Origin: Neisseriaceae bacterium TC5R-5
GTDB taxonomy: Bacteria > Pseudomonadota > Gammaproteobacteria > Burkholderiales > Chromobacteriaceae
Assembly (NCBI GenBank): GCA_020830965.2
Contig: JACCFC020000019.1
Coordinates: 1-58,850 of the forward strand
Direction: 5' to 3'
Length of the DNA: 58,850 nucleotides
Both the position numbers and the translations under genes were made by a program. Shown in pieces: positions 1 through 55,144 of the stretch. The notes beneath the pieces are model-generated. The model saw only the letters and a list, made by a program, of their open reading frames with translations, made no database searches and had not been told where the DNA came from. Each line of letters starts with the position of its first letter. Positions within the stretch are counted from its first letter, which is position 1.

Positions 1-144
1 AAGGGCTACGACGCTGGCAAAAAGGTTTCTGGCATCAAGCGTCATATCGCTGTCGATACACAGGGGCTGCCTCATGCTGTGCTCATCACCACGGCTGACG
101 TGACAGATCGCCATGGCGCCTTACTCATGAACAACGCTAATTGA
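1..144 (+). pseudogene. IS5-family transposase remnant (partial, C-terminally truncated)
   Basis: Frame 1 is open from the first base to a TGA at 142-144. It reads KGYDAGKKVSGIKRHIAVDT and continues through GLPHAVLITTADVTDRHGA. This is the typical central block of IS5-family (IS427-like) transposases, around the DDE core segment that precedes the DR-x-GA motif. The reading frame stops right after this block, where an intact transposase would continue to its catalytic Glu. The 5' part lies outside the window. No terminal inverted repeat was recognised downstream. It is probably a dead insertion-sequence fragment, next to the isolated GH28 gene. The family assignment rests on recalled motif similarity. 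Confidence 0.75.
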
Positions 145-3133: not shown

Positions 3134-3247
3134 AGAGCCGCTAACAACACCCCTGATCCAGCGTTGCGCCTCCTTGCCATACCACTTGTCCTGTCTTCGT
3201 CGGCACGCCTTGGCTCAGCTGCTCTTCGAGCTTTTGTTCGCGGCGCT
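3134..3247. repeat. Correia-like interspersed repeat, copy 1 (orientation B)
   Basis: Full-length copy, about 114 bp, with terminal inverted repeats (AGAGCCGCTAACAACACCCC on the left, TTTTGTTCGCGGCGCT on the right). The inner part matches the other copies in the window read in reverse (GATCCAGCGTTGCGCC, then GGCACGCCTTGGCTCAG). The middle (TTGCCATACCACTTGTCCTGTCTTCG) is slightly diverged. It lies in the convergent gap between the hydrolase and BLUF genes. Confidence 0.88.
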
Positions 3248-4570: not shown

Positions 4571-5491
4571 TCACAGTGGAGCGGTTTTATCAAATGGTGG
4601 GTAATCAACATCACCTTCATCCTGTTCTTTTGGCACATTATCAATATAACGATGCTGCCAGAGTATGTCTTCGCTCAACCAGGCATGGCCAGTATGTATC
4701 GATTGGGTTGTCGTACTGTCAAACCCTTCCAGGGTAAGCAAGATTGACCCTTCCGACTCCGCCAGGGTCTGTGCAGTTTGGCCGTGTAATGGACTGGATT
4801 GGTCAATCACATGAATCAGTGTCCAATACAGCATCAGTACCGGATAATGGTCGAGCTCCAGTTTCAACTCATGCAGCTTCGGTACCATCACCCCTTCCGC
4901 ATTCATTTCCCGCAAAATCAGCCACATCCTAGCCTGCACCCCACCGATAACATTATGACGCTCGTTGGCTACACGTACCTCCAACGCCATCTGGTCATGC
5001 TGAGAACCAATCACAACAGAACGGGCGAAGGCAAGCCTCGATTTAGGTCGCGAGAAACGTGCAAAAATCACCCCAGTCATCAGCGCAATACTGCACATAC
5101 CAATAAAAATCTCCAGCGTGGCAATAATATGCGCATAGAGCGTTTGCGGGTGCATATCACCATAACCAACAGTAGCCAGTGTTTCGACACTAAAGAAAAA
5201 TGCGCCGGCAAAGCCAGGGGGGAATTGATTGGCAATCGGCGCATGGCCCAGCATAAAGAGCAAGGCAAATACCAAATTCAGCAAGAAGAAAGCGACGGCA
5301 ATTGACCCAAAAAAAACCGGCCAGCTCATTGCCAGAGCATAGAAATAGAGGTCATGCCAGATATATTCAGACTGGCTGGTGGAAACCACGACATTGGGAA
5401 GCAATAACTGTTGTTTCCTCTGCCTGCTTCGATGTTGCCATGTCTGTTGGTTGACAATAAAGTGCTTGGTATTGCGATTGGGCATTTTCAT
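4571..5491 (-). CDS. inward-rectifier potassium channel, KirBac family
   Basis: 306-residue inner-membrane K+ channel when started at ATG 5491 (MKMPNRN). It has an amphipathic slide helix (about 43-53), TM1 (59-82), a pore helix, the selectivity filter TVGYGD (107-112) followed by MHP as in KirBac channels, and TM2 (118-145). A beta-rich cytoplasmic domain follows (RPKSRLAFARSVVI, the MWLIL strand, the LILD/LTLEGFD region). The same frame stays open upstream to 5626, but those codons lie inside a repeat copy (5543-5656), so the longer 351-residue reading is rejected. No strong Shine-Dalgarno sequence is seen for any start; ATG 5485 is equally possible. It is a single gene with no regulator next to it. 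Confidence 0.88.
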   Translation of the reverse strand: MKMPNRNTKHFIVNQQTWQHRSRQRKQQLLLPNVVVSTSQSEYIWHDLYFYALAMSWPVFFGSIAVAFFLLNLVFALLFMLGHAPIANQFPPGFAGAFFFSVETLATVGYGDMHPQTLYAHIIATLEIFIGMCSIALMTGVIFARFSRPKSRLAFARSVVIGSQHDQMALEVRVANERHNVIGGVQARMWLILREMNAEGVMVPKLHELKLELDHYPVLMLYWTLIHVIDQSSPLHGQTAQTLAESEGSILLTLEGFDSTTTQSIHTGHAWLSEDILWQHRYIDNVPKEQDEGDVDYPPFDKTAPL

Positions 5492-5542
5492 AACAGGTAT
5501 CACACAAAGCGGAACAACGTGCATTGAGTGCACGAAAAAACA

Positions 5543-5656
5543 AGAGCCGCTAACAAAACCTCGAAGAGTCCCTGAGCCAAGGCGCGCCGACGCAGACAGT
5601 ACCCGTAGTACGGCAAGGAGGCGCAATGCTGGATCAGGGGTGTGGCTAGCGGCTCT
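5543..5656. repeat. Correia-like interspersed repeat, copy 2 (orientation A, near-consensus)
   Basis: 114-bp full-length copy with intact terminal inverted repeats (AGAGCCGCTAACAAAACC on the left, AGCGGCTCT on the right). The inner segments are the reference for the family: TCGAAGAG, CCCTGAGCCAAGGCGCGCC, GACGCAGACAGTAC, GTAGTACGGCAAGGAGGCGC and GGATCAGGGG. Inner halves such as CCCTGA/TCAGGG and GTAC/GTAC also pair, so a transcript would fold into one long irregular hairpin. It lies just upstream of the KirBac gene. Confidence 0.92.
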
Positions 5657-5915
5657 AAGGCCGCTGATAGTACAACATAACGATATGTGTAATCAGACTA
5701 CCCGCAATACTTTTATGAAAACAACCCTGTTTATAAGGAAAAATCGCTACTTATCACAATATTTGTAATCACATCAGAGCTTATGTACACATCGGCGGAC
5801 AAACCCTGTTCTAATTTGCAAAACAGTTTTATACGAACCAACCATGGCCCACATAATTTGATGACTTATCCGTCTTCTGGGTCGGACACAAGCAATAATA
5901 TTGCCAACAACGCTT

Positions 5916-6845
5916 TTATAAAAAATGAATACTAGGCATTTCAGTGCTAATACGAGTTCCACATTTGCCCTGAACCATTCCCTCAATATCTGCTAAGGAA
6001 CCAATCACGGCGACCTTTCCTGTGCGCTGAGCAAACTTGCAGGCCGCCTGAACTTTCGGAGACATAGAACCCTCGGCAAAATCTATCTTTGCCATGTCTG
6101 TCGGATGTGCCTGTCTGATAGCCCGCTGAGTGGGCTGATTCCAATCAGTAAAAACTGCACTCACATCCGTAGCAATGATGAGCAGGTCGCAATCTAATTG
6201 CTCAGCCAGCAAAGCAGAACATAAATCCTTATCTATGACTGCCTCGACACCAATGAGCATACCCTGCTCATCGTACTGTGTTGGAATTCCACCTCCGCCA
6301 GCACAAATGACAATACAGCCTTTCTCCAATAGCCACTGAATAGGTTGGATTGCAAGTATACGTTTGGGCTTCGGGCTGGCAACGACCCGGCGAAACTGAT
6401 TACCATCCGGCGCAATTTTCCAGCCCTTCTCCACCGCCAGTCTTTCAGCTTCTGCTTTAGAATACAGAGGGCCAATTGGTTTACTCGGAACATCAAAAGC
6501 GGCATCTTCCGGGTCTACCTCAACTTGCGTCAGCACAGTTGCGAAAGAAACATCTGCAGGCAGCAGATTCCGTAACTCCTGCTCTATCATGTAGCCAATC
6601 ATGCCCTCAGTTTCAGCACCCAATACATCTAGAGGATAGGGACTGACTGGCGTATAGGCTGCCGCCTGTAATGACAGCAAGCCGATTTGTGGGCCATTGC
6701 CATGGGTAAGTAACAATTGCTTGCCAGTTGCAATCCTGGCGATTTGTTCAACCGCGATGCGAATATTGGCACGTTGATGATCAGCCGTCATCGGTTCGTG
6801 CCTGCGCAGCAAGGCGTTACCGCCCAATGCAATGACTACTCTCAT
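5916..6845 (-). CDS. arcC: carbamate kinase
   Basis: 309-residue carbamate kinase. It makes ATP from carbamoyl phosphate and ADP, the last step of the arginine deiminase pathway. The N-terminal [10 protein letters not shown] motif, [24 protein letters not shown] and the ICAGGGGIP loop are all typical and full-length. It is the last gene of arcDABC on the minus strand. It is separated from arcB by 151 bp that contain a repeat copy, so its mRNA is probably processed or attenuated between the two. The downstream 5657-5915 segment contains no recognisable gene. Confidence 0.95.
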
Positions 6846-6883
6846 AACTTGATCTTTCCTTAGTCTGCTTGGTCAATAAATTA

Positions 6884-6998
6884 AGAGCCGCTAACAAAAC
6901 CTCGAAGAGCATCTGAGCCAAGGCGCGCCGACGCAGACAGTACCAAGAGCTACGGCAAAGAGGCGCAACGCTGGATCAGAGGTGTTGTGAGCGGCTCT
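6884..6998. repeat. Correia-like interspersed repeat, copy 3, inside the arc operon
   Basis: 115-bp full-length copy in orientation A with inverted ends AGAGCCGCTAACAAAACC and GTGAGCGGCTCT. It lies in the arcB-arcC gap, and its outer edge (CTCT at 6995-6998) supplies two bases of the arcB stop codon (TAG, read on the minus strand at 6999-6997). The RNA of the arc operon must run through it. Confidence 0.92.
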
Positions 6999-8007
6999 AA
7001 ATATCTGCCAACGTAGCCACCAAAATGGCTTTGATGGTATGCAGACGGTTTTCTGCTTGTTCGAATGCGATATTGGCGCTTGACTCAAAAACTTCTTCAG
7101 TCACTTCCACCCCATTGGCTAAATATGGGTGGCGTGCAGCGATATCCTGGCCTAATTTGGTTTCGCTATTATGAAGAGCAGGAAGGCAGTGCATAAATTT
7201 GACGCGTGGATTGTTTGCCGCCTGCATCAGTTGGCTATTCACCTGATAAGACAGTAGTTGTTCAATCCGACTATCCCAGCTTTCCTGTGCTTCTCCCATC
7301 GAAACCCACACATCCGTGTGAATGAAGTCGACACCCTCAACCGCTGCCTGAGGATTTTCGGTAATGGAAAGACGGGCACCACTTTCCTGGGCAAAAGCCT
7401 GGCATTGAACGATGAAACCCTCATCAGGCCAGAATGCTTTGGGTGCAGCTATACGCACATCCATGCCCAGCTTCGCGCCAATAAGTAATAAAGAATTACC
7501 CATGTTGTAGCGTGCGTCGCCAAGGTAGGCATAACGGATATCACTCAGCGGTTTATCACTATGTTCGCGCATCGTCAGAACATCTGCCAGCATCTGGGTC
7601 GGGTGAAACTCGGCTGTCAGGCCATTAAATACAGGGACGCCGGCAAACTCTGCCAGCTGCTCCACAGTTTTTTGTTCGAAACCACGATATTCAATGGCAT
7701 CAAACATACGGCCCAAGACACGGGCGGTGTCTTTCATGCTTTCTTTGTGGCCAATTTGTGATGAAACTGGGTCAATATAAGTAATATGAGCACCTTGATC
7801 ATGCGCGGCCACTTCAAAGGCACAACGTGTACGTGTTGAGTTTTTTTCGAAGATCAGCGCAATGTTTTTACCTTTCAGATGAGCTTGTTCTGTACCCGTG
7901 TACTTGGCACGCTTCAAATCACGCGAAAGATCAAGGAGATAGTGCAGCTCACGACTGCTGTGATGCATCAGGCTCAGTAAGCTTCGGTTCCGCAGGTTGA
8001 AAGCCAT
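6997..8007 (-). CDS. arcB: ornithine carbamoyltransferase, catabolic type
   Basis: 336-residue enzyme that splits citrulline to ornithine and carbamoyl phosphate in the arginine deiminase pathway. The carbamoyl-phosphate loop STRTR is at 57-61, and the ornithine-binding HCLPALHN block is near the C-terminus. Length and sequence fit the catabolic ArcB/ArgI group. It starts 27 bp after the arcA stop. The C-terminus [14 protein letters not shown] is the normal family end, and the stop TAG is formed across the edge of repeat copy 3. Its position between arcA and arcC decides the catabolic name over argF. Confidence 0.96.
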
Positions 8008-8034
8008 GGTGTTACCTCTCTCGGAAATGGGGTT

Positions 8035-9294
8035 CTAGGTGTAATCGATTGGATCGCGAATGATTGGACAGGTCATACAGTGCCCTCCTCCGCGACCACG
8101 ACCAAGTTCGCTGGCATTGATGGTAATCACTTCGACACCCGCCTTACGCAGCATGGTATTGGTATGGGTATTGCGGTCATAAGCAATGACGACACCGGGC
8201 TCTAGCGCCACCACATTATTACCATCGTCCCATTGTTCGCGCGCAGCGGTGAAACGGTTGCCTCCGGTTTCTACCACTCGCAGTTTTTTTAGCTTGAGGG
8301 CTGCGGCAACCGTCTCAATAAAACTAAGCTTTTCACGACGTACATCAATCCCGGCCAGCATCGTTTCATCGGGACGCAGTGTAAAGGTAGAAATTTGCTC
8401 TACTACTTCAGTGAAAACGGTGACTAAATCCCGATCACAAAAACTAAATACCGTATCCAGATGCATTGCTGAACGCAATTTTGGCAAAGCAGCAATAATG
8501 ACCTGCTCTGCCGCCTGATGTTTGAACAAGCTTTGTGCCAGTTGGAAAATCGCCTGCAAAGAAGACCGTTCCCCCATACCGATCAGCACAACGCCATGAC
8601 CAATGGGCATAATATCGCCCCCTTCCAGCGTTGCGTTGCCATGATCCAGATCTGGGTTGCCGTACCAAATCTGAAATGAGTGCTTACTAAACTCTGGATG
8701 AAATTGATAAATGGCGCTGGTCAGCAGTGTCTCCTGGCGCCTGGCCGGCCAGTACATTGGATTAAGGCTTACCCCGCCGTAAATCCAACAGCTTGTATCA
8801 CGGGTGAACAGCGTATTGGGCAATGGCGGCAAGATGAAACCGGTATGAGCAAGCAAATCACGCAGCATGCTGATACCCTTGCCACCAAAATCATTGGGCA
8901 AATCATCGACAGCGATGCCGCCGATCAAGAAATCAGCGATTTGGCGTGGCTCCAGGCTACGTAACCAAGCACGAATGTCATCGACCAGGCTGATGCCAAC
9001 CTGATTCGGACTCACCTTACGTGTCAGTATCCAGTCGAGCGCTTCTGGCTGGGCAACGATATCTGTTAGCAGATTGTGCATTTCCAGAACATCAACATTG
9101 TGCTCACGCATTTTAGTGACGAAATCAAAATGATCACGCTTGGCCTGATTCACCCACAGCACATCATCAAACAGTAACTCGTCACAATTGCTTGGAGTCA
9201 GCCGCTGCTGCGCTTGGCCAGGGGAACATACCATCACCTTACGTAATTTTCCTGCTTCCGAATGAACACCATAGTCAATATTTTCCATCGTCAT
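8035..9294 (-). CDS. arcA: arginine deiminase
   Basis: 419-residue arginine deiminase (arginine to citrulline and ammonia). The catalytic Cys is in [10 protein letters not shown], at residue 406, matching the position known for the Pseudomonas enzyme. The FTRD motif (LFTRDTSCW), the EGGD motif (TLEGGDIM) and the catalytic His region (HLDTVF) are also seen. ATG 9294 was chosen because AAGGAG lies 7 bp upstream. The same frame runs open to 9423, into the 3' end of arcD, but that extension has no family similarity. It is preceded by arcD (44-bp gap) and followed by arcB. Confidence 0.96.
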
Positions 9295-9338
9295 TCTGGA
9301 TCTCCTTTTCTTGTTGCAAAACAGCTCAAAGCAAGGCT

Positions 9339-10766
9339 CTACAGTGTGAATATCCCCTGATAAAGACTGTAAACCGCGAGCAGCGCCCCAGTCATCACGG
9401 CCATGAAGATCCATTTTTCCCAATAGGTAAAAATGGCTTTATCTGACTCATACCTGGCTTTTGTGAATAGGAAAACGCCGGGTAAATAAAGCAGGCAAGA
9501 TAGCAATAAGTATTTGAGGCCTCCCGCATAAAGCAGCCAGCTTGCATAAATTAAAGCAGTGGCGCTAATCAACAGGTCTTTGCGCTGTTGAACCTGAGCG
9601 CCTGCATAAGTCTCACCGCGTACTGTTAATAACAATGCATAGGCTGCGGACCAGAAGTAAGGCACCAAGATCATCGAAGTCGCCAGATAGATGAGAGATA
9701 AGTAGGTGCTGGCAGAAAAGAGTGTGATAAGCAGGAAAATTTGTACCATCAGGCTACTAAGCCATAAGGCATTGCTGGGTACATAATTGATATTTTTCTT
9801 ACACAAAAAGGCAGGCATAGTATGGTCTTTGGCTGCCGTAAACATGATTTCAGCAGATAGCAATGACCAAGACAATAGTGATCCGAATAGCGCAATGACC
9901 AAGCCGATACTAATCAGTAAGGTACCCCAGTAACCAAGTACATGCTCCAGTACCCCTGCCATCGAAGGATTTTTTAACCCGGCTAGCTCCGGTTGGGTCA
10001 TGATCCCTAACGACAGGACATTGATGAGCACAAGTAACAGCAATACCATCCCAAAACCGATTATCGTTGCTTTACCCACATCAGAGCGCTTCTCTGCTCG
10101 GGCTGAAAAAATACTGGCGCCTTCTATACCAATAAATACCCAGACGGTCACAAGCATCATATTACGCACCTGATTCACAATCCCCCCAAGACTGGGATTT
10201 TTTATTCCCCATATATCAGCCTTGAAAATATCTAGCTTGAAAGCAAAAAGGGATAGGCAGATGAATAACAATAATGGGACGATTTTGGCAACCGTGGCTA
10301 TCAAGTTGATAAAAGCGGCCTCTTTGACACCACGTAAAATGAGGAAATGCACAATCCAGAGCAAAACAGAGGCACAGAAGATAGCAAGAGGAGTATTACC
10401 GTCACCGAAGATAGGAAAGAAATGACCGAGCGTTCCAAATAACAGCACTAAATAACTGACATTGCCTAACCAGGCGCTGATCCAATAACCCCAGGCAGAA
10501 GAAAAGCCCATGTAGTCGCCAAAGCCCGCTTTGGCATAAACATAGACTCCACCATCTAGATCAGGTTTGCGATTGGCCAGTGTCTGAAATACAAATGCCA
10601 GCATCAGCATGCCAATAGCGGTAATACACCAGCCAATCAGAATAGCGCCAGCTCCGGCACTGACACTAATATTCTGCGGCAGTGAAAAGATGCCACTGCC
10701 TAGCATCGAACCGATAACTAAGGCGACCAAAGCACTTAGACGTAAACGACCAGAAGGCTGCGACAC
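9339..10766 (-). CDS. arcD: arginine/ornithine antiporter
   Basis: 475-residue APC-superfamily membrane transporter with about 12-13 hydrophobic segments. It begins with [14 protein letters not shown], the substrate-loop signature of ArcD/YcaM-type antiporters. It should exchange extracellular arginine for intracellular ornithine and so feed the deiminase pathway without energy cost. The start is GTG at 10766 with AGAGGA 7 bp upstream. It is the first gene of arcDABC. About 220 bp separate it from acnB, and its promoter must lie there. Confidence 0.93.
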
Positions 10767-15199: not shown

Positions 15200-15285
15200 C
15201 TAAGCCAAAGTGCGCCGACGCAAACAGTACAAAGTAGTACGGCAAAGAGGCGCAACGCTGGCTCAGGGGTGTTGTTAGCGGTTCT
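15200..15285. repeat. Correia-like interspersed repeat, copy 4 (left end missing)
   Basis: Orientation A copy of about 86 bp that begins at AAGCCAAAGTGCGCCGACG and has lost the left inverted repeat. The right part GGCAAAGAGGCGCAACGCTGG and end GTTGTTAGCGGTTCT are kept. It lies 8 bp after the AmiS/UreI stop. Confidence 0.85.
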
Positions 15286-18547: not shown

Positions 18548-19327
18548 ATGCCTCCTAGCAAACCCCATAGCCTGTTAGCCGACTTTATCCGCAGCCACCG
18601 CGAACGCCTAAGTCCGGAACAAGTTGGCCTACCGCCAGGCTTGCGTCGTCGAGCCAAGGGTTTGCGACGTGAAGAGGTGGCGGCTTTATCCGGCATCAGC
18701 ACCACTTGGCTCACCTGGATAGAACAAGGCCGTACTCAATCTATATCCGCTGCCACCTTGTCACGACTGGCCGATACCTTATTATTGAATGCTGCAGAAC
18801 GCGATTATTTATTCACGCTGGCCGGTTTGAAGAAGCCGGAATCCGAACGTCACGACGATAGCCAGGAAGCCCAGCAACTACTTGAGCTGGCTATCAGCAA
18901 GATCCACGCCCCGGCTTATGTGCTGGATGCCTATTGGCACGCGGTGGCATGGAATACGGCAGCTGCTGATTTATTTTGTCATTGGCTGGGAACCGGGCAA
19001 GCGCCAGACAGTTTATTGGATTTTATTTTTCTTAATCCACATGCCCGCAGCTTCATTGAAGATTGGCCGACTCGCGCTGGCCGCGTCGTCGCCGAATTGC
19101 GCGCCGATATCAGTAACCATCTGGAAGAGCCTGCAACCGCGACGATGATTCAGCATTTACGAGAAAATAGTGCTGAATTTGCCCTGCTCTGGCAACAGCA
19201 GGATGTCTTAGAACGCGAAGGTGGCTCACGCATCTTTCACCACCCTCGCAGCGGACGTATTGAATATCAGCAAATCACCTTAAGGCTAGCCCAAGCGCCA
19301 GACTACAAGCTGGTGATGCTGATTTAG
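18548..19327 (+). CDS. XRE-family regulator with MmyB-like ligand-binding domain
   Basis: 259 residues. The N-terminal HTH (about residues 5-70: LLADFIRSHRERLSPEQVGL, RRAKGLRREEVAALSGISTTW, WIEQGR) is followed by an MmyB-type PAS-like ligand-binding domain (YVLDAYWHAVAWNTAAADLF, RVVAELRADI, FHHPRSGRIEYQQITLRLA). Members often control neighbouring oxidoreductase or transport genes. Here the divergent neighbour is leuC, and the gene itself is preceded by a palindrome and a half-site. ATG 18548 is used because the family starts here; there is no Shine-Dalgarno sequence. The stop TAG (19325-19327) merges with the edge of repeat copy 5. Confidence 0.88.
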   Translation: MPPSKPHSLLADFIRSHRERLSPEQVGLPPGLRRRAKGLRREEVAALSGISTTWLTWIEQGRTQSISAATLSRLADTLLLNAAERDYLFTLAGLKKPESERHDDSQEAQQLLELAISKIHAPAYVLDAYWHAVAWNTAAADLFCHWLGTGQAPDSLLDFIFLNPHARSFIEDWPTRAGRVVAELRADISNHLEEPATATMIQHLRENSAEFALLWQQQDVLEREGGSRIFHHPRSGRIEYQQITLRLAQAPDYKLVMLI

Positions 19328-19439
19328 AGTCGCTAACAAAACCCCTGATCCAGCATTGTGCCTCCTTGCCGTACTACTGGTACTGCCTGCGTCGGCGCGC
19401 CTTGACTCAGGGACTCTTTGAGCTTTTGTTAGCGGCTCT
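19326..19439. repeat. Correia-like interspersed repeat, copy 5 (orientation B)
   Basis: 114-bp full-length copy with ends AGAGTCGCTAACAAAACCCC and TTTTGTTAGCGGCTCT. Its first bases overlap the stop codon of the MmyB-like regulator. The centre GCCGTACTACTGGTACTGCC keeps the inner GTAC pair. It lies between convergent genes. Confidence 0.92.
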
Positions 19440-27480: not shown

Positions 27481-27588
27481 AGAGGTGCTGACAAAACCTC
27501 GAAGAGTCCCTGAGCCAAGGCGCACCGATGCTGCCCAGTACCCGTAGTACGGCAAGGAGGCGCAACGCGGGATCAGTGGTTTAACAGC
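27481..27588. repeat. Correia-like interspersed repeat, copy 6 (degraded)
   Basis: Orientation A copy whose left end reads AGAGGTGCTGACAAAACCTCGAAGAG and whose centre is CAGTACCCGTAGTACGGCAAGG. The right inverted repeat is eroded to GGTTTAACAGCC. It lies 60 bp downstream of the TetR stop. The following 180 bp up to the universal stress gene shows no gene. Confidence 0.85.
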
Positions 27589-28220: not shown

Positions 28221-28319
28221 AGAGCCGTTAACAAAACCCCAGAAAGCCTCTGATGCAGACAGTACAAGTGGCACCGCAAGAAGGCGCAACGCTAGATCAA
28301 GGGTTTTGTTAGCAGCTCT
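28221..28319. repeat. Correia-like interspersed repeat, copy 7 (short variant)
   Basis: 99-bp orientation A copy with both ends (AGAGCCGTTAACAAAACCCC and TTTTGTTAGCAGCTCT). A small internal deletion removes the GCCAAGGCGCGCCG segment. Confidence 0.88.
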
Positions 28320-29007: not shown

Positions 29008-29108
29008 TAGGTGGCGAGCCTAACCCCCGGCACTTACACTAAATAACTATGGCTGCTTCCTTCCGGACCTGACCAGATTCGCTATCGTGCAATGCGGGGA
29101 GACCCGCC
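29008..29108 (-). ncRNA. ffs: signal recognition particle RNA, 4.5S type
   Basis: Read on the minus strand, the segment contains the invariant SRP domain: the apical sequence GGTCAGGTCCGGAAGGAAGC (about 29061-29080), followed by AGCCATAG. The 5' GGCGGGTCT pairs with the 3' AGGCTCGCC to close the hairpin. Length is about 101 nt. It is the scaffold of the Ffh-RNA particle that targets membrane proteins co-translationally. The ends are set by base pairing and may be off by a few bases. Confidence 0.95.
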
Positions 29109-29359: not shown

Positions 29360-29463
29360 AGGGCTGCTAACAAAAAGCCGAGCCAAGGCGCGCCGACACA
29401 GACAGTACCAGTAGTACGGCAAGGAGGCACAACGCGGGATCAGGGATTTTGGTTAGCGGCTCT
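29360..29463. repeat. Correia-like interspersed repeat, copy 8
   Basis: 104-bp orientation A copy. The left end has drifted to AGGGCTGCTAACAAAAAGCC; the right end is TTTTGGTTAGCGGCTCT. The CCTCGAAGAG segment is missing. It sits just downstream of thiD. The remaining ~250 bp between ffs and this copy shows no gene. Confidence 0.88.
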
Positions 29464-30331: not shown

Positions 30332-30439
30332 AGAGCCGCTAACAAGACCTCGAAGAGGTGCTGAACCAAGGCGCGCCGACGTAGAGAGTACAAGTACTAC
30401 GGCAAGGAGGCGCAACGCTGGATCAGGGGTTTGTTAGCA
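30332..30439. repeat. Correia-like interspersed repeat, copy 9 (right end cut)
   Basis: Orientation A copy beginning AGAGCCGCTAACAAGACCTCG and ending GGGGTTTGTTAGC. The last eight bases of the right inverted repeat are lost where the stop codon of the NCS2 permease begins. Confidence 0.9.
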
Positions 30440-49249: not shown

Positions 49250-49299
49250 AGAGCCGCCAACAAAACCTCGAAGAGCCCCTGAATCAAGGTGCGCCGACA
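49250..49299. repeat. Correia-like interspersed repeat, copy 10 (left half only)
   Basis: 50-bp orientation A fragment: AGAGCCGCCAACAAAACCTC, GAAGAGCCCCTGAATCAAGG, TGCGCCGACA. It then breaks off into unrelated sequence. The 49140-49499 interval otherwise holds no gene. Confidence 0.82.
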
Positions 49300-52535: not shown

Positions 52536-52635
52536 AGAACCGCTAACAAAATCACGAAGAGGTCCTGAATCAAGGCGCGCCGACGCAGACAGTACCAGTA
52601 GTACTGGCAGGATCAGGGGTTTTGCTAGCGGTGCT
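52536..52635. repeat. Correia-like interspersed repeat, copy 11 (internal deletion)
   Basis: 100-bp orientation A copy: AGAACCGCTAACAAAATCACG, CAAGGCGCGCCGACGCAGAC, AGTACCAGTAGTACTGGCAGG, ATCAGGGGTTTTGCTAGCGG. The GGAGGCGCAACGC segment is missing. It lies between uraA and ccoI. Confidence 0.88.
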
Positions 52636-52705
52636 AAGCCAGCCTTGTTGGAGACTGATCGTGCAGGCAAGCAAAACTATTCAGGATTGTTTACAATGGC
52701 GCGCC

Positions 52706-55144
52706 ATGAACGAATCCTGTTTCCATTGCGGCCTGCCAATCCCCGCCACTGCCGACTTCCCGGTGCGCTATCGTGAGCAAGCACAGGCCACTTGTTGCGC
52801 CGGTTGTCAGGCAGTAGCCAGCACCATTATTCAAAGCGGGCTGGCTGATTATTATCAGCACCGCACTGCTGGTGCGCGACAAGCGGAACCCTTGCCACGA
52901 GAGCTGCTGGAACAGATCCGGCTCTACGATGCCGAAGCCTTGCAGCGCAGTTTTGTGCATATTGAAAACGAGCAGGTGCGCGAGGCCTCGCTGATGCTGG
53001 AAGGCATCACCTGCGCCGCCTGTGTCTGGCTGAACGAACAACATCTGAGCCGCTTGCCTGGCGTACTTAGCGTCGATATCCATTACGGCAGCCATCGCGC
53101 ACGAGTGCGCTGGGATACCCAGCGCCTGCGCTTATCTGACATCTTGCAAGCGATTCATGCTATCGGTTATCACGCCCACCCCTATGATGCGAATCGTCAG
53201 GAGGCCTTGCAGCAGCGGGAACGCAAACAGACCATCAAGCGCTTATGGGTAGCTGGGCTATCGATGATGCAGGTGATGATGTACGCCGTGCCGATTTATC
53301 TCGATTCCGCCCAGGAAATCAGTGCCGATTTTCTCTGGCTGCTACACTGGGCCAGCTTCATTCTGACGCTGCCGGTGGTGCTGTACTCGGCAGTGCCGTT
53401 TTACCGTGCCACCTGGCGCGACCTCAAAGCCCACCGTGTCGGTATGGATACCCCCATCAGCATCGGTATTCTCACCGCTTTTATTGCCAGTTGCTGGGCA
53501 CTGCTGCAGCGTGTGGAACACGGCATCTATTTTGACTCGGTGTCGATGTTTGTGTTTCTGCTCCTGGGTGGGCGCTATCTGGAAAGCCTGGCCCAGCGCA
53601 AAGCTGGAGCGGCCACCGAAAGCCTGATCAAATTGATCCCCGCCTTTGCTCATCAGCTCAGCGACTGGCCGGCCTCGCATAACAGCCAGCAAGCGGCAGT
53701 GACGCAATTGCATAAAGACGACATTATTCTGGTGAAGCCCGGCGAAACCATTCCGGTAGATGGCTTGGTGTTAGCGGGTAATAGCGCCAGCAATGAGGCT
53801 TTGCTCACCGGAGAGAGCCGTTTGCTCGACAAAACGGAGGGAGACACAGTCATTGCCGGCAGCGTGAACTGCACCAGCCCGCTGGTGATCAGGGTCGAAC
53901 GCAACGGCGAAGACACACGTTTGGCCAGCATTGTGCGCTTACTAGACAAGGCCCTGGCGGAAAAACCCCGTCTAGCACTCTTGGCCAACCACTTTGCCAG
54001 TTGGTTTGTCACCTTATTACTGCTCACTGCGGCCGCCACTTATCTGGGCTGGCATTATGTAGACCCCGATCGCGCCTTGTGGGTGATGGTAGCAGTGCTG
54101 GTTATCTCCTGCCCCTGTGCTTTATCACTGGCCACCCCCACCGCCTTGACTGCCGCCGCCGGTCATCTGGCCAGCTTGGGCATTCTGGTGACGCGCGGCC
54201 ATGCGCTGGAAACCCTGCCCAAGGTCAGCGAGGTGGTATTCGATAAAACCGGCACACTCACTTATGGCGAGCTGCGTCTGCTTGACTGCCTACCCATGGC
54301 CGTAGACGACCGCAGCACTGTACTGCAATTGGCTGCTACCTTAGAACAAGGTTCCGAACACCCGCTAGCGCGCGCACTATTAGCCGCTTTGCCGACAGAT
54401 AAGATGCTGCCCGCCTGCAGCCAATTGCAAAGTCTGCCGGGCCAAGGGCTAAGCGGCCACATTGATGGAAAACCTTACTGGCTGGGCGCGCCGGAATTCA
54501 TCTGCCAGCAGTTAGGCTTGGCGCAACTACCACAACCCGACTGGCAGGCCGATAACACCGTTATTGCACTCGCTAATCAGCAACAGTTGCTGGCACTATT
54601 TGCCTTCGGCGACGCGCCACGCGCCGAAGCTGCCGAGTTGATTCAACAACTAAAGCAGCAAGGATTGAACGTACACTTGCTCAGTGGTGATGGCGACGGT
54701 GCGGTATCCGCACTGGCACAACGACTGGCCATCCCGCAACAACGCGCCCGCGCCACGCCAGAAGACAAGCTAGCCTATGTCAGTGCCCTACAGGCACAAG
54801 GTAAACGTGTGCTGATGGTGGGCGACGGCATCAATGATGCGCCGGTACTGGCTAAGGCCGATGTCTCCCTGGCAATGGGCGCTGGTACCGATGTCGCCCG
54901 TGCCAGCGGCGATATGATTCTGATCAATAACCAGCTAACCCTCATTGCTCAGGCCATGAAGGTGGCCCGGCGCACACTGCACATCATCCAGCAGAATCTG
55001 TGCTGGGCAGCTGGCTATAATCTGCTCGCACTGCCACTGGCCATCAGTGGCCATGTCACCCCTTGGATCGCCAGTCTTGGCATGGCCACCAGCTCATTGC
55101 TGGTAGTCAGCAATGCCTTACGCTTGCTCAGGCGGAAAAGCTGA
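52706..55144 (+). CDS. ccoI: copper-transporting P1B-type ATPase for cbb3 oxidase assembly
   Basis: 812 residues. An N-terminal cysteine-rich segment (C5-x2-C8, then C30-C-x2-C34) is followed by an HMA domain with GITCAACVW (Cys103/Cys106). About eight TM segments follow, with ion-binding CPC at 469-471, phosphorylation motif DKTGTLT (Asp513) and hinge GDGINDAP (706-713). The N-terminal ferredoxin-like region and the ccoS partner mark FixI/CcoI, which loads copper into cbb3 oxidase. ATG 52706 is the family start (MNESCFHCGLP); the open frame from 52622 begins in the repeat. The oxidase genes themselves are not in the window. Confidence 0.93.
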   Translation: MNESCFHCGLPIPATADFPVRYREQAQATCCAGCQAVASTIIQSGLADYYQHRTAGARQAEPLPRELLEQIRLYDAEALQRSFVHIENEQVREASLMLEGITCAACVWLNEQHLSRLPGVLSVDIHYGSHRARVRWDTQRLRLSDILQAIHAIGYHAHPYDANRQEALQQRERKQTIKRLWVAGLSMMQVMMYAVPIYLDSAQEISADFLWLLHWASFILTLPVVLYSAVPFYRATWRDLKAHRVGMDTPISIGILTAFIASCWALLQRVEHGIYFDSVSMFVFLLLGGRYLESLAQRKAGAATESLIKLIPAFAHQLSDWPASHNSQQAAVTQLHKDDIILVKPGETIPVDGLVLAGNSASNEALLTGESRLLDKTEGDTVIAGSVNCTSPLVIRVERNGEDTRLASIVRLLDKALAEKPRLALLANHFASWFVTLLLLTAAATYLGWHYVDPDRALWVMVAVLVISCPCALSLATPTALTAAAGHLASLGILVTRGHALETLPKVSEVVFDKTGTLTYGELRLLDCLPMAVDDRSTVLQLAATLEQGSEHPLARALLAALPTDKMLPACSQLQSLPGQGLSGHIDGKPYWLGAPEFICQQLGLAQLPQPDWQADNTVIALANQQQLLALFAFGDAPRAEAAELIQQLKQQGLNVHLLSGDGDGAVSALAQRLAIPQQRARATPEDKLAYVSALQAQGKRVLMVGDGINDAPVLAKADVSLAMGAGTDVARASGDMILINNQLTLIAQAMKVARRTLHIIQQNLCWAAGYNLLALPLAISGHVTPWIASLGMATSSLLVVSNALRLLRRKS

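Follow-up and report, generated by a model that had tools for sequence, protein, structure and literature searches.

Short intergenic repeats recur at high copy number along a 58,850-nt stretch of contig JACCFC020000019.1 from Neisseriaceae bacterium TC5R-5 (hereafter the window), which raises the questions of what these repeats are, what moves them, and whether they are kin to the Correia elements of Neisseria, as an earlier note made from the letters alone had proposed. All eleven copies listed in that note were found at their positions. The reference copy (5544-5655, +; best match of model R1, E 1.6e-19) has terminal inverted repeats (TIRs) at 5544-5560 and 5639-5655 and a structured core at 5563-5640, of the form CAAGGCG-B-CGCAG-C-loop-C'-GCAAG-B'-CAA(C/T)G on the plus strand, the one that probably folds. 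Three further copies are complete, namely 3134-3247 (-), whose right end and the stop codon of a dienelactone-hydrolase-family gene are 4 nt apart, 6884-6998 (+), flanked by an amino-acid-kinase (carbamate-kinase-like) gene and an OTC gene, and 19326-19439 (-). The other copies, all on the plus strand, lack the left TIR (15200-15285), the right TIR (27481-27582) or the right tip (30332-30437), carry a subterminal deletion beside a complete core (29360-29463), have an internally deleted core (28221-28319 and 52536-52635) or are truncated to the left half (49250-49298); the whole core is present in eight of the eleven, the exceptions being the last three. The two or three additional remnants once reported were not recovered at an E-value of 0.05, and model R2 found ten copies, beyond which all of its matches had E >1. 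The consensus gave no BLAST match in any of ten dinucleotide-shuffled windows. Near the copy at 29360, the window also encodes a bacterial small SRP RNA (RF00169, E 2.9e-16; 29010-29108, -).

Identical 3-mers flank 25 of the 34 two-ended copies of this genome and are always TAA (14) or TTA (11), which defines an element of 112 bp that runs from GAGCCGCTAACAAAACC to GGTTTTGTTAGCGGCTC, plus a TNA duplication. The family had been described as 100-115 bp long, with inverted-repeat ends usually flanked by TA or TAA; its size and its ends (17-bp TIRs) agree with this description, as does TAA (TAA/TAA in 14/34), and the TA is replaced by a 3-mer TNA that includes TTA/TTA (11/34). The repeat is short and non-coding, with 17-bp TIRs, a target-site duplication and ends common to one insertion sequence (IS) of the same genome, and is thus best read as a non-autonomous DNA transposon, i.e. 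a MITE. Model-based counting, which the earlier note had suggested, put the number in the 3.53-Mb genome (148 contigs) at 141 or more (E<=1e-3), 150 of 1263 first-look candidates having been scored. At one locus (L007, ~1480-1614), the left flank of a MITE resembles by eye the right end of another MITE with the TAA in common, as in a head-to-tail tandem.

A candidate transposase is resident in the same genome. Of its 21 PF01609 matches, 20 loci were scanned for the ends of the repeat, and a single one (L032, G000:C80) revealed an 864-bp IS whose ends match those of the MITE at 17/17 and 16/17 positions. This IS encodes two frames, with PF13340 and PF01609, which place it in the IS5 family, and it is flanked by TAA on one side and TTA on the other, so that its own duplication is imperfect. 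At nine loci with IS5 or IS630 elements, no core was found between the IS ends; two matches there were neighbouring MITEs. Given that the L032 IS holds no core and has only its ends in common with the MITE, the latter is not a deletion product of that IS. Instead, the common ends together with the TNA duplications suggest mobilization in trans, in which the resident IS5-family DDE transposase most likely inserts the MITE at TNA targets, frequently at stop codons. Separately, a DDE_Tnp_1 transposase fragment lies at the contig edge (window 1-129, +).

The statement that no copy lies inside a gene stands in substance, except that the copies at 6884-6998 and 19326-19439 share 2 nt with the final codon of an adjacent ORF (in the latter case a stop codon). 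Three mechanically called ORFs (4571-5626, 5379-5768 and 52622-55144) also extend into copies, for which misassigned starts or chance are the probable reasons, and outside the window one of 27 examined copies lies inside an ORF, a dubious one of 95 aa. Among 38 copies of this genome, 11 lie between convergent and 2 between divergent genes, 15 between tandem genes with the core opposite and 7 with the core in the same direction, along with 2 at contig edges and 1 in a dubious ORF. Of 53 sampled loci, which are non-independent (five are pstB of one family), 19 have a stop codon no more than 24 nt from the CAACGCC side and 6 have one that close to the other side; the genes identified at five stop-adjacent loci encode PstB, GroEL, IF-2, YbaB and AceF. 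The side bias in this set was 27 versus 12 on the right (p 0.024) and 22 versus 20 on the left. We had considered a one-sided bias to gene 3' ends, which was rejected because, unlike the sampled loci, 140 cores from named, viral and plasmid sequences lean toward 3' ends on both sides (left, 59 toward versus 34 away, p 0.012; right, 60 versus 43, p 0.11). For the window copy at 6884, in the arcB-arcC gap, two genomes of the same genus (G767 and G768) have no MITE at this position, and the gap is not a clean empty site; a search of window 6500-7400 in 12 same-genus genomes gave repeat-length matches in at least nine. The surrounding region (5916-10766) carries amino-acid-kinase and OTC genes (Pfam), and the next genes resemble, by eye, an arginine deiminase cluster.

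The proposed Correia link was borne out as far as the core is concerned; it does not extend to the outer ends. The consensus aligned to a gonococcal Correia copy with a local score of 40, against a maximum of 19 in 2000 dinucleotide shuffles, and the core alone scored 33 (maximum 20 in 2000 shuffles). Both repeats are short and palindromic, and a chance or convergent likeness of unrelated palindromes might be suspected on that ground; the shuffled maximum, the BLAST E-values of 4e-12 to 7e-3 in 7.3 Gb and the recurrence of a pattern with 24 fixed bases in at least 108 stretches (see below) refute this explanation and leave it next to no probability. The outer ends differ, being GAGCC.../TNA in the window and TATAGTGG... 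in the gonococcal copy, and they resemble different transposase families. With a common core and different outer ends, the window repeat is a relative of the Correia element and not a Correia element proper. Correia elements target the TA dinucleotide, and this target is not that of the window repeat, which has a TNA 3-mer duplication instead. Nor are the ends of the window repeat, GAGCCGCTAACAAAACC, the 26-bp Correia terminal repeat TATAGTGGATTAAC printed in the available text of PMC5039591 and PMC9778887. An IS5-like assignment of the Correia ends was dropped, as these resemble the IS630 type. Compared end by end, the left ends of the window and gonococcal repeats are weakly alike (40 of 2000 shuffles reach the score), and the right ends have GGTTTTGTTA in common (1 of 2000 shuffles). 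Both end types contain (C/T)TAACAAAA, and given this common motif the ends may have changed gradually. Two Neisseria papers contain GTACTGTCTGC; among the papers listed in a literature search, none dealt with the core outside Neisseria, although subscription papers may contain more.

Outside Neisseria, where the earlier note had thought that a relative would be of interest, the distribution is far wider than it supposed. When the consensus was searched by BLAST in 72,556 plasmid records (7.3 Gb), ten records were retrieved, from Eleftheria (2; E 4e-12), Cupriavidus (2), N. gonorrhoeae (2; E 4e-6, at least 40 places each), Paraburkholderia (2), Massilia (1) and Undibacterium (1; E 7e-3). The two gonococcal records (NZ_CP119142.1 and NZ_CP119140.1) are 2.17-Mb ‘plasmid’ entries and evidently chromosomes. 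Among the records listed from this collection, the best match to the UvrB of the window is also from N. gonorrhoeae (74.7%), so that the host is probably a betaproteobacterium close to Neisseriales; a 16S sequence was looked for and not found. The 24-fixed-base core pattern matched at least 108 stretches of GTDB contigs, and among the matches listed the hosts included Neisseria species, Vogesella, Aquitalea, Cupriavidus, Ralstonia, Massilia, Janthinobacterium, Herbaspirillum, Undibacterium, Glaciimonas, Rhodoferax, Novimethylophilus, Thiobacillus, Cardiobacterium, Rappaport and others, i.e. named Beta- and Gammaproteobacteria. At E<=1e-5, matches to model R1 were present in 38 of 369 genomes from the class (one being that of the window), and model R2 found the core across the phylum, in 72 of 398 sampled genomes (that of the window, 16 of the same order, 23 of the same class and 32 of other classes). 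Phage records did not match the consensus, BLAST of three class-level elements against plasmids gave no match, and Rfam searches of the window and of 28 loci (8 + 20) gave nothing over the core, with three sub-threshold matches in window 5500-5700 (E 2.1-8).

Around this core, the ends vary between hosts. The GAGCCGCTAACAAAACC ends of the window have similar counterparts in Vogesella and Ralstonia soli, and the core is flanked by GAGACGCTATCAAAATGA and variants in Cupriavidus, by GGACTTACGCAAAATTG in Rhodoferax, by GCGGGCCTGAAAAATG in Janthinobacterium, by TATAGTGGATTAAC and four or more further TATAG types in Neisseria, and by TATAGTTGAAGAAGTG in Rappaport, among others. In several families, inverted core twins lie ~110 bp apart (L240, L241, L244, L245, L230, L229, L246, L231, L233 and L271), an arrangement that resembles BIMEs. 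We compared 18 nt of MITE ends with IS ends in five hosts. The MITE of the window matched its own IS5 at 18/18 and other IS at 12 or fewer, and the core-bearing MITE of Cardiobacterium valvarum, a genome with 18 PF13358 (IS630) matches, reached 15/18 with its own IS630 and at most 12 with other IS. Partners were less distinct in N. elongata (14 with its own IS630, 14 with that of another Neisseria), Neisseria S28M (13 and 13) and Cupriavidus sp. IDO (14 with its own IS5 relative, 13 with the IS5 of the window). MITEs with TATAG ends matched IS630 ends at 11-15 positions and IS5 ends at 4-8, and those of the window and Cupriavidus were closer to IS5 ends. Judged by this sequence likeness, all five hosts have a clear end type (IS5 or IS630), and two also have a clear resident partner IS. 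IS630 transposases are present in Cardiobacterium and N. elongata, and among core-bearing genomes the IS5 protein of the window matched 2/10 and PF13358 5/8. N. sicca and Neisseria S5R, both rich in such MITEs, had neither an IS5 nor a PF13358 match, and N. dentiae had no PF13358 match. None of the three PF13358 loci of Rappaport displayed an IS with MITE ends, and a search by end pattern returned mostly MITE-spaced pairs.

What has been conserved across these hosts is an imperfect hairpin of three stems, in which the bulges are fixed and the stem letters vary between lineages while pairing is kept. The module spans ~55 nt and reads stem A, AA bulge, GGC, stem B, GCA, stem C, loop, then C', AA, B', AAC bulge, GCC and A'. 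In 41 non-redundant cores aligned without structure (MAFFT), 82.0% of cells paired versus 63.8% after shuffling, and double-changed cells numbered 188 versus 64.7+-7.2, with at most 82 in a slid control. Columns 28-29/58-59 of this set are GC/GC in 24 rows and tandem GA/GA in 12. Because the search pattern fixed stem C in these 41 rows, this stem was judged on model matches from other families, and it is covered by the double-change counts of two larger alignments (86 rows, 507 versus 149+-11, slid control at most 152; 109 rows, 667 versus 188+-12, slid control at most 148), which, like the 11-row alignment below, were fitted to the model and so lean toward it, their loci being non-independent. 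Inner cores were also stabler than shuffles (mean z -2.1, n=41; -2.5, n=38), and most of 20 printed inner-core foldings adopted the same fold. On the CAAGGCG strand, G.T exceeded A.C in all five groups (143 versus 37), an asymmetry indicating that one strand folds. Without the genome of the window, the count was 102 versus 19 in 85 rows, 46 of the 102 falling in two outer-stem pairs; in the 24 rows from the genome of the window, 17 of 41 G.T cells represent one consensus pair. RNA folding energies were mixed, with the other strand stabler in 26 and the CAAGGCG strand in 14 of 41 inner cores, and the CAAGGCG strand stabler in 26 of 38 class-level cores; hence, it is from the G.T/A.C count that we infer CAAGGCG to be the folding strand.

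Whether this fold is kept after insertion seems to differ between settings. Among 112 copies of the window's own genome, divergence was 0.098 at the ends, 0.092 in the core and 0.106 in the subterminal parts, and the core had no clear G.T excess (139 versus 115 A.C, p 0.15). Stem A alone did show one (52 versus 27, p 0.007), and of 18 double changes, with 13.7 expected by chance, 17 stay paired, which means that drift is incomplete or that sub-families exist. Between lineages the fold is under selection; within this genome, most change in a copy once inserted looks like drift, so that selection on the fold probably acts through the spread of the element. The pstB-phoU site of another family presents a different picture. 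There, the element was found at 11 of 30 loci (the 30 best of a 59-genome search), the other 19 having no model match, and the 11 fitted rows contained 32 double-changed cells versus 9.1+-2.4, with 20 G.T versus 2 A.C. The fold is thus maintained in place at this site by compensatory change, which suggests that the host later came to use the element at some old sites, this one downstream of pstB among them. Within this family (L221, L257, L262, L263, L273 and L372-L401), some members have the element at the stop codon of pstB and others gave no match, and L376 shows, by eye, an internally deleted remnant.

How the same module came to lie between unlike ends can be explained in more than one way. 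It could represent a single MITE lineage across Pseudomonadota, whose ends drifted together with their transposases and whose core is simply the palindrome middle needed for the ends to pair. This would fit the inner ends CTAACAAAA/TTAACAAAA, which the window and gonococcal copies have in common, and the graded series of ends that surround a single core in Cupriavidus and, separately, in Neisseria. However, the IS5 (PF01609) and IS630 (PF13358) transposases belong to different families, so that at least one jump is needed, upkeep of a simple palindrome does not predict fixed bulges beside variable stems, and in a Neisseria element (L122) two end types flank one core, as judged by eye; we consider such a lineage rather unlikely.

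Two other explanations assign the hairpin a primary role of its own. It may be a host-useful 3'-UTR RNA that acts in stability, RNase III processing or termination, as has been reported of the nemis transcripts of Neisseria, with transposition as a secondary means of spread. The preference of copies for gene 3' ends, including the 19 versus 6 stop-side bias among the 53 loci, and the in-place compensation at pstB are consistent with this possibility, as is the RNase III cleavage of Correia transcripts reported in the available text of a review (PMC10969869). We nonetheless regard it as unlikely, since the strand that folds according to G.T and A.C counts is antisense to the abutting gene, 19 of 30 pstB loci lack a model match, and copies in the genome of the window mostly drift. 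Alternatively, the core may be a folded single-stranded DNA (ssDNA) site for a hairpin-acting enzyme, as in attC or REP/RAYT systems, with a secondary role for the DDE-type ends. A strand-specific fold with fixed bulges, on the strand antisense to the abutting gene as in attC bottom strands, and the inverted twins ~110 bp apart would all be expected of such a site. Against it, the genome of the window has no PF01797 (Y1_Tnp) match at E<=1e-3, a control having matched 5 of 14 genomes, no attC boxes were seen by eye, and TNA duplications with IS-like ends indicate DDE transposition; we therefore find it quite improbable.

We lean, with modest confidence, toward an ancient strand-specific hairpin module carried in MITEs with exchangeable ends, of which the Correia element would be one branch. 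The interior of the MITE does not derive from the resident IS and is instead a conserved module that folds on one strand as an imperfect hairpin, and the same module lies between other ends elsewhere, of IS630 type in Cardiobacterium and, by resemblance, in the Correia element of Neisseria. Since a module found between IS5-type and IS630-type ends requires at least one change of transposase family, such a change must have happened, probably by recombination through the common core. In the genome of the window, the fold probably serves the spread of the element itself, the hairpin forming as ssDNA, as a cruciform or as antisense-strand RNA and being recognized by some factor distinct from the DDE transposase; this reader could act on ssDNA or antisense-strand RNA, and the strand count speaks against sense mRNA. 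At old sites such as pstB, the hairpin may later have been used by the host. A broader version, in which a superfamily across at least two classes, defined by its strand-specific bulged hairpin and not by the ends, has repeatedly changed transposase (IS5, IS630 and others), is selfish, and is in places kept by hosts beside the stop codons of core genes, with Correia as its Neisseria branch, is held more tentatively, as somewhat likelier to be wrong than right.

The nearest known counterparts include the CREE/nemis elements of Neisseria, which have a core homologous over CAAGGCG...GCAGACAGTAC...TAGTACGGCAAGG....GCAACGC, a similar size (~104 bp, and 112 bp for the window MITE) and a high copy number. 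They differ in their host group and their ends, which are TATAGTGGATTAAC and IS630-type-like, whereas the window MITE has GAGCCGCTAACAAAACC, IS5-type ends and a TNA duplication. REP/BIME/REPIN sequences, mobilized by RAYTs, are likewise imperfect intergenic hairpins with inverted twins in some families; unlike them, the window MITE has TIRs and target duplications, lacks the GTAG head that is a feature of REPs, and resides in a genome without a Y1_Tnp match. Integron attC sites resemble it as bulged hairpins near gene 3' ends whose folded (bottom) strand is antisense to the gene, and differ in that the window MITE has TIRs and TNA duplications and no R/L boxes recognized by eye. In size, IS5-type ends and short duplication, the features on which it was compared, the window MITE is also like MITEs derived from IS5, among them the Pseudomonas syringae element MITEPsy1, which is 100 nt long with IS5-type ends and a short duplication and is reported to transpose in the available text of PMC3189936.

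Taken together, these comparisons bear on how such elements arise. Conservation across hosts is higher in the middle of this family than at its ends, and the middle occurs with the ends of two transposase families, whereas the usual explanation of a bacterial MITE is that it arose from a single IS by internal deletion. Eukaryotic SINEs, which borrow their engines, provide a partial analogy for such a module. To our knowledge, the transposase of the Correia element is unsettled, and the present results offer a testable origin for it, namely IS630-like ends that came to enclose an old hairpin. A covariance model is now available for counting the family and for seeking the partner that may bind its hairpin.
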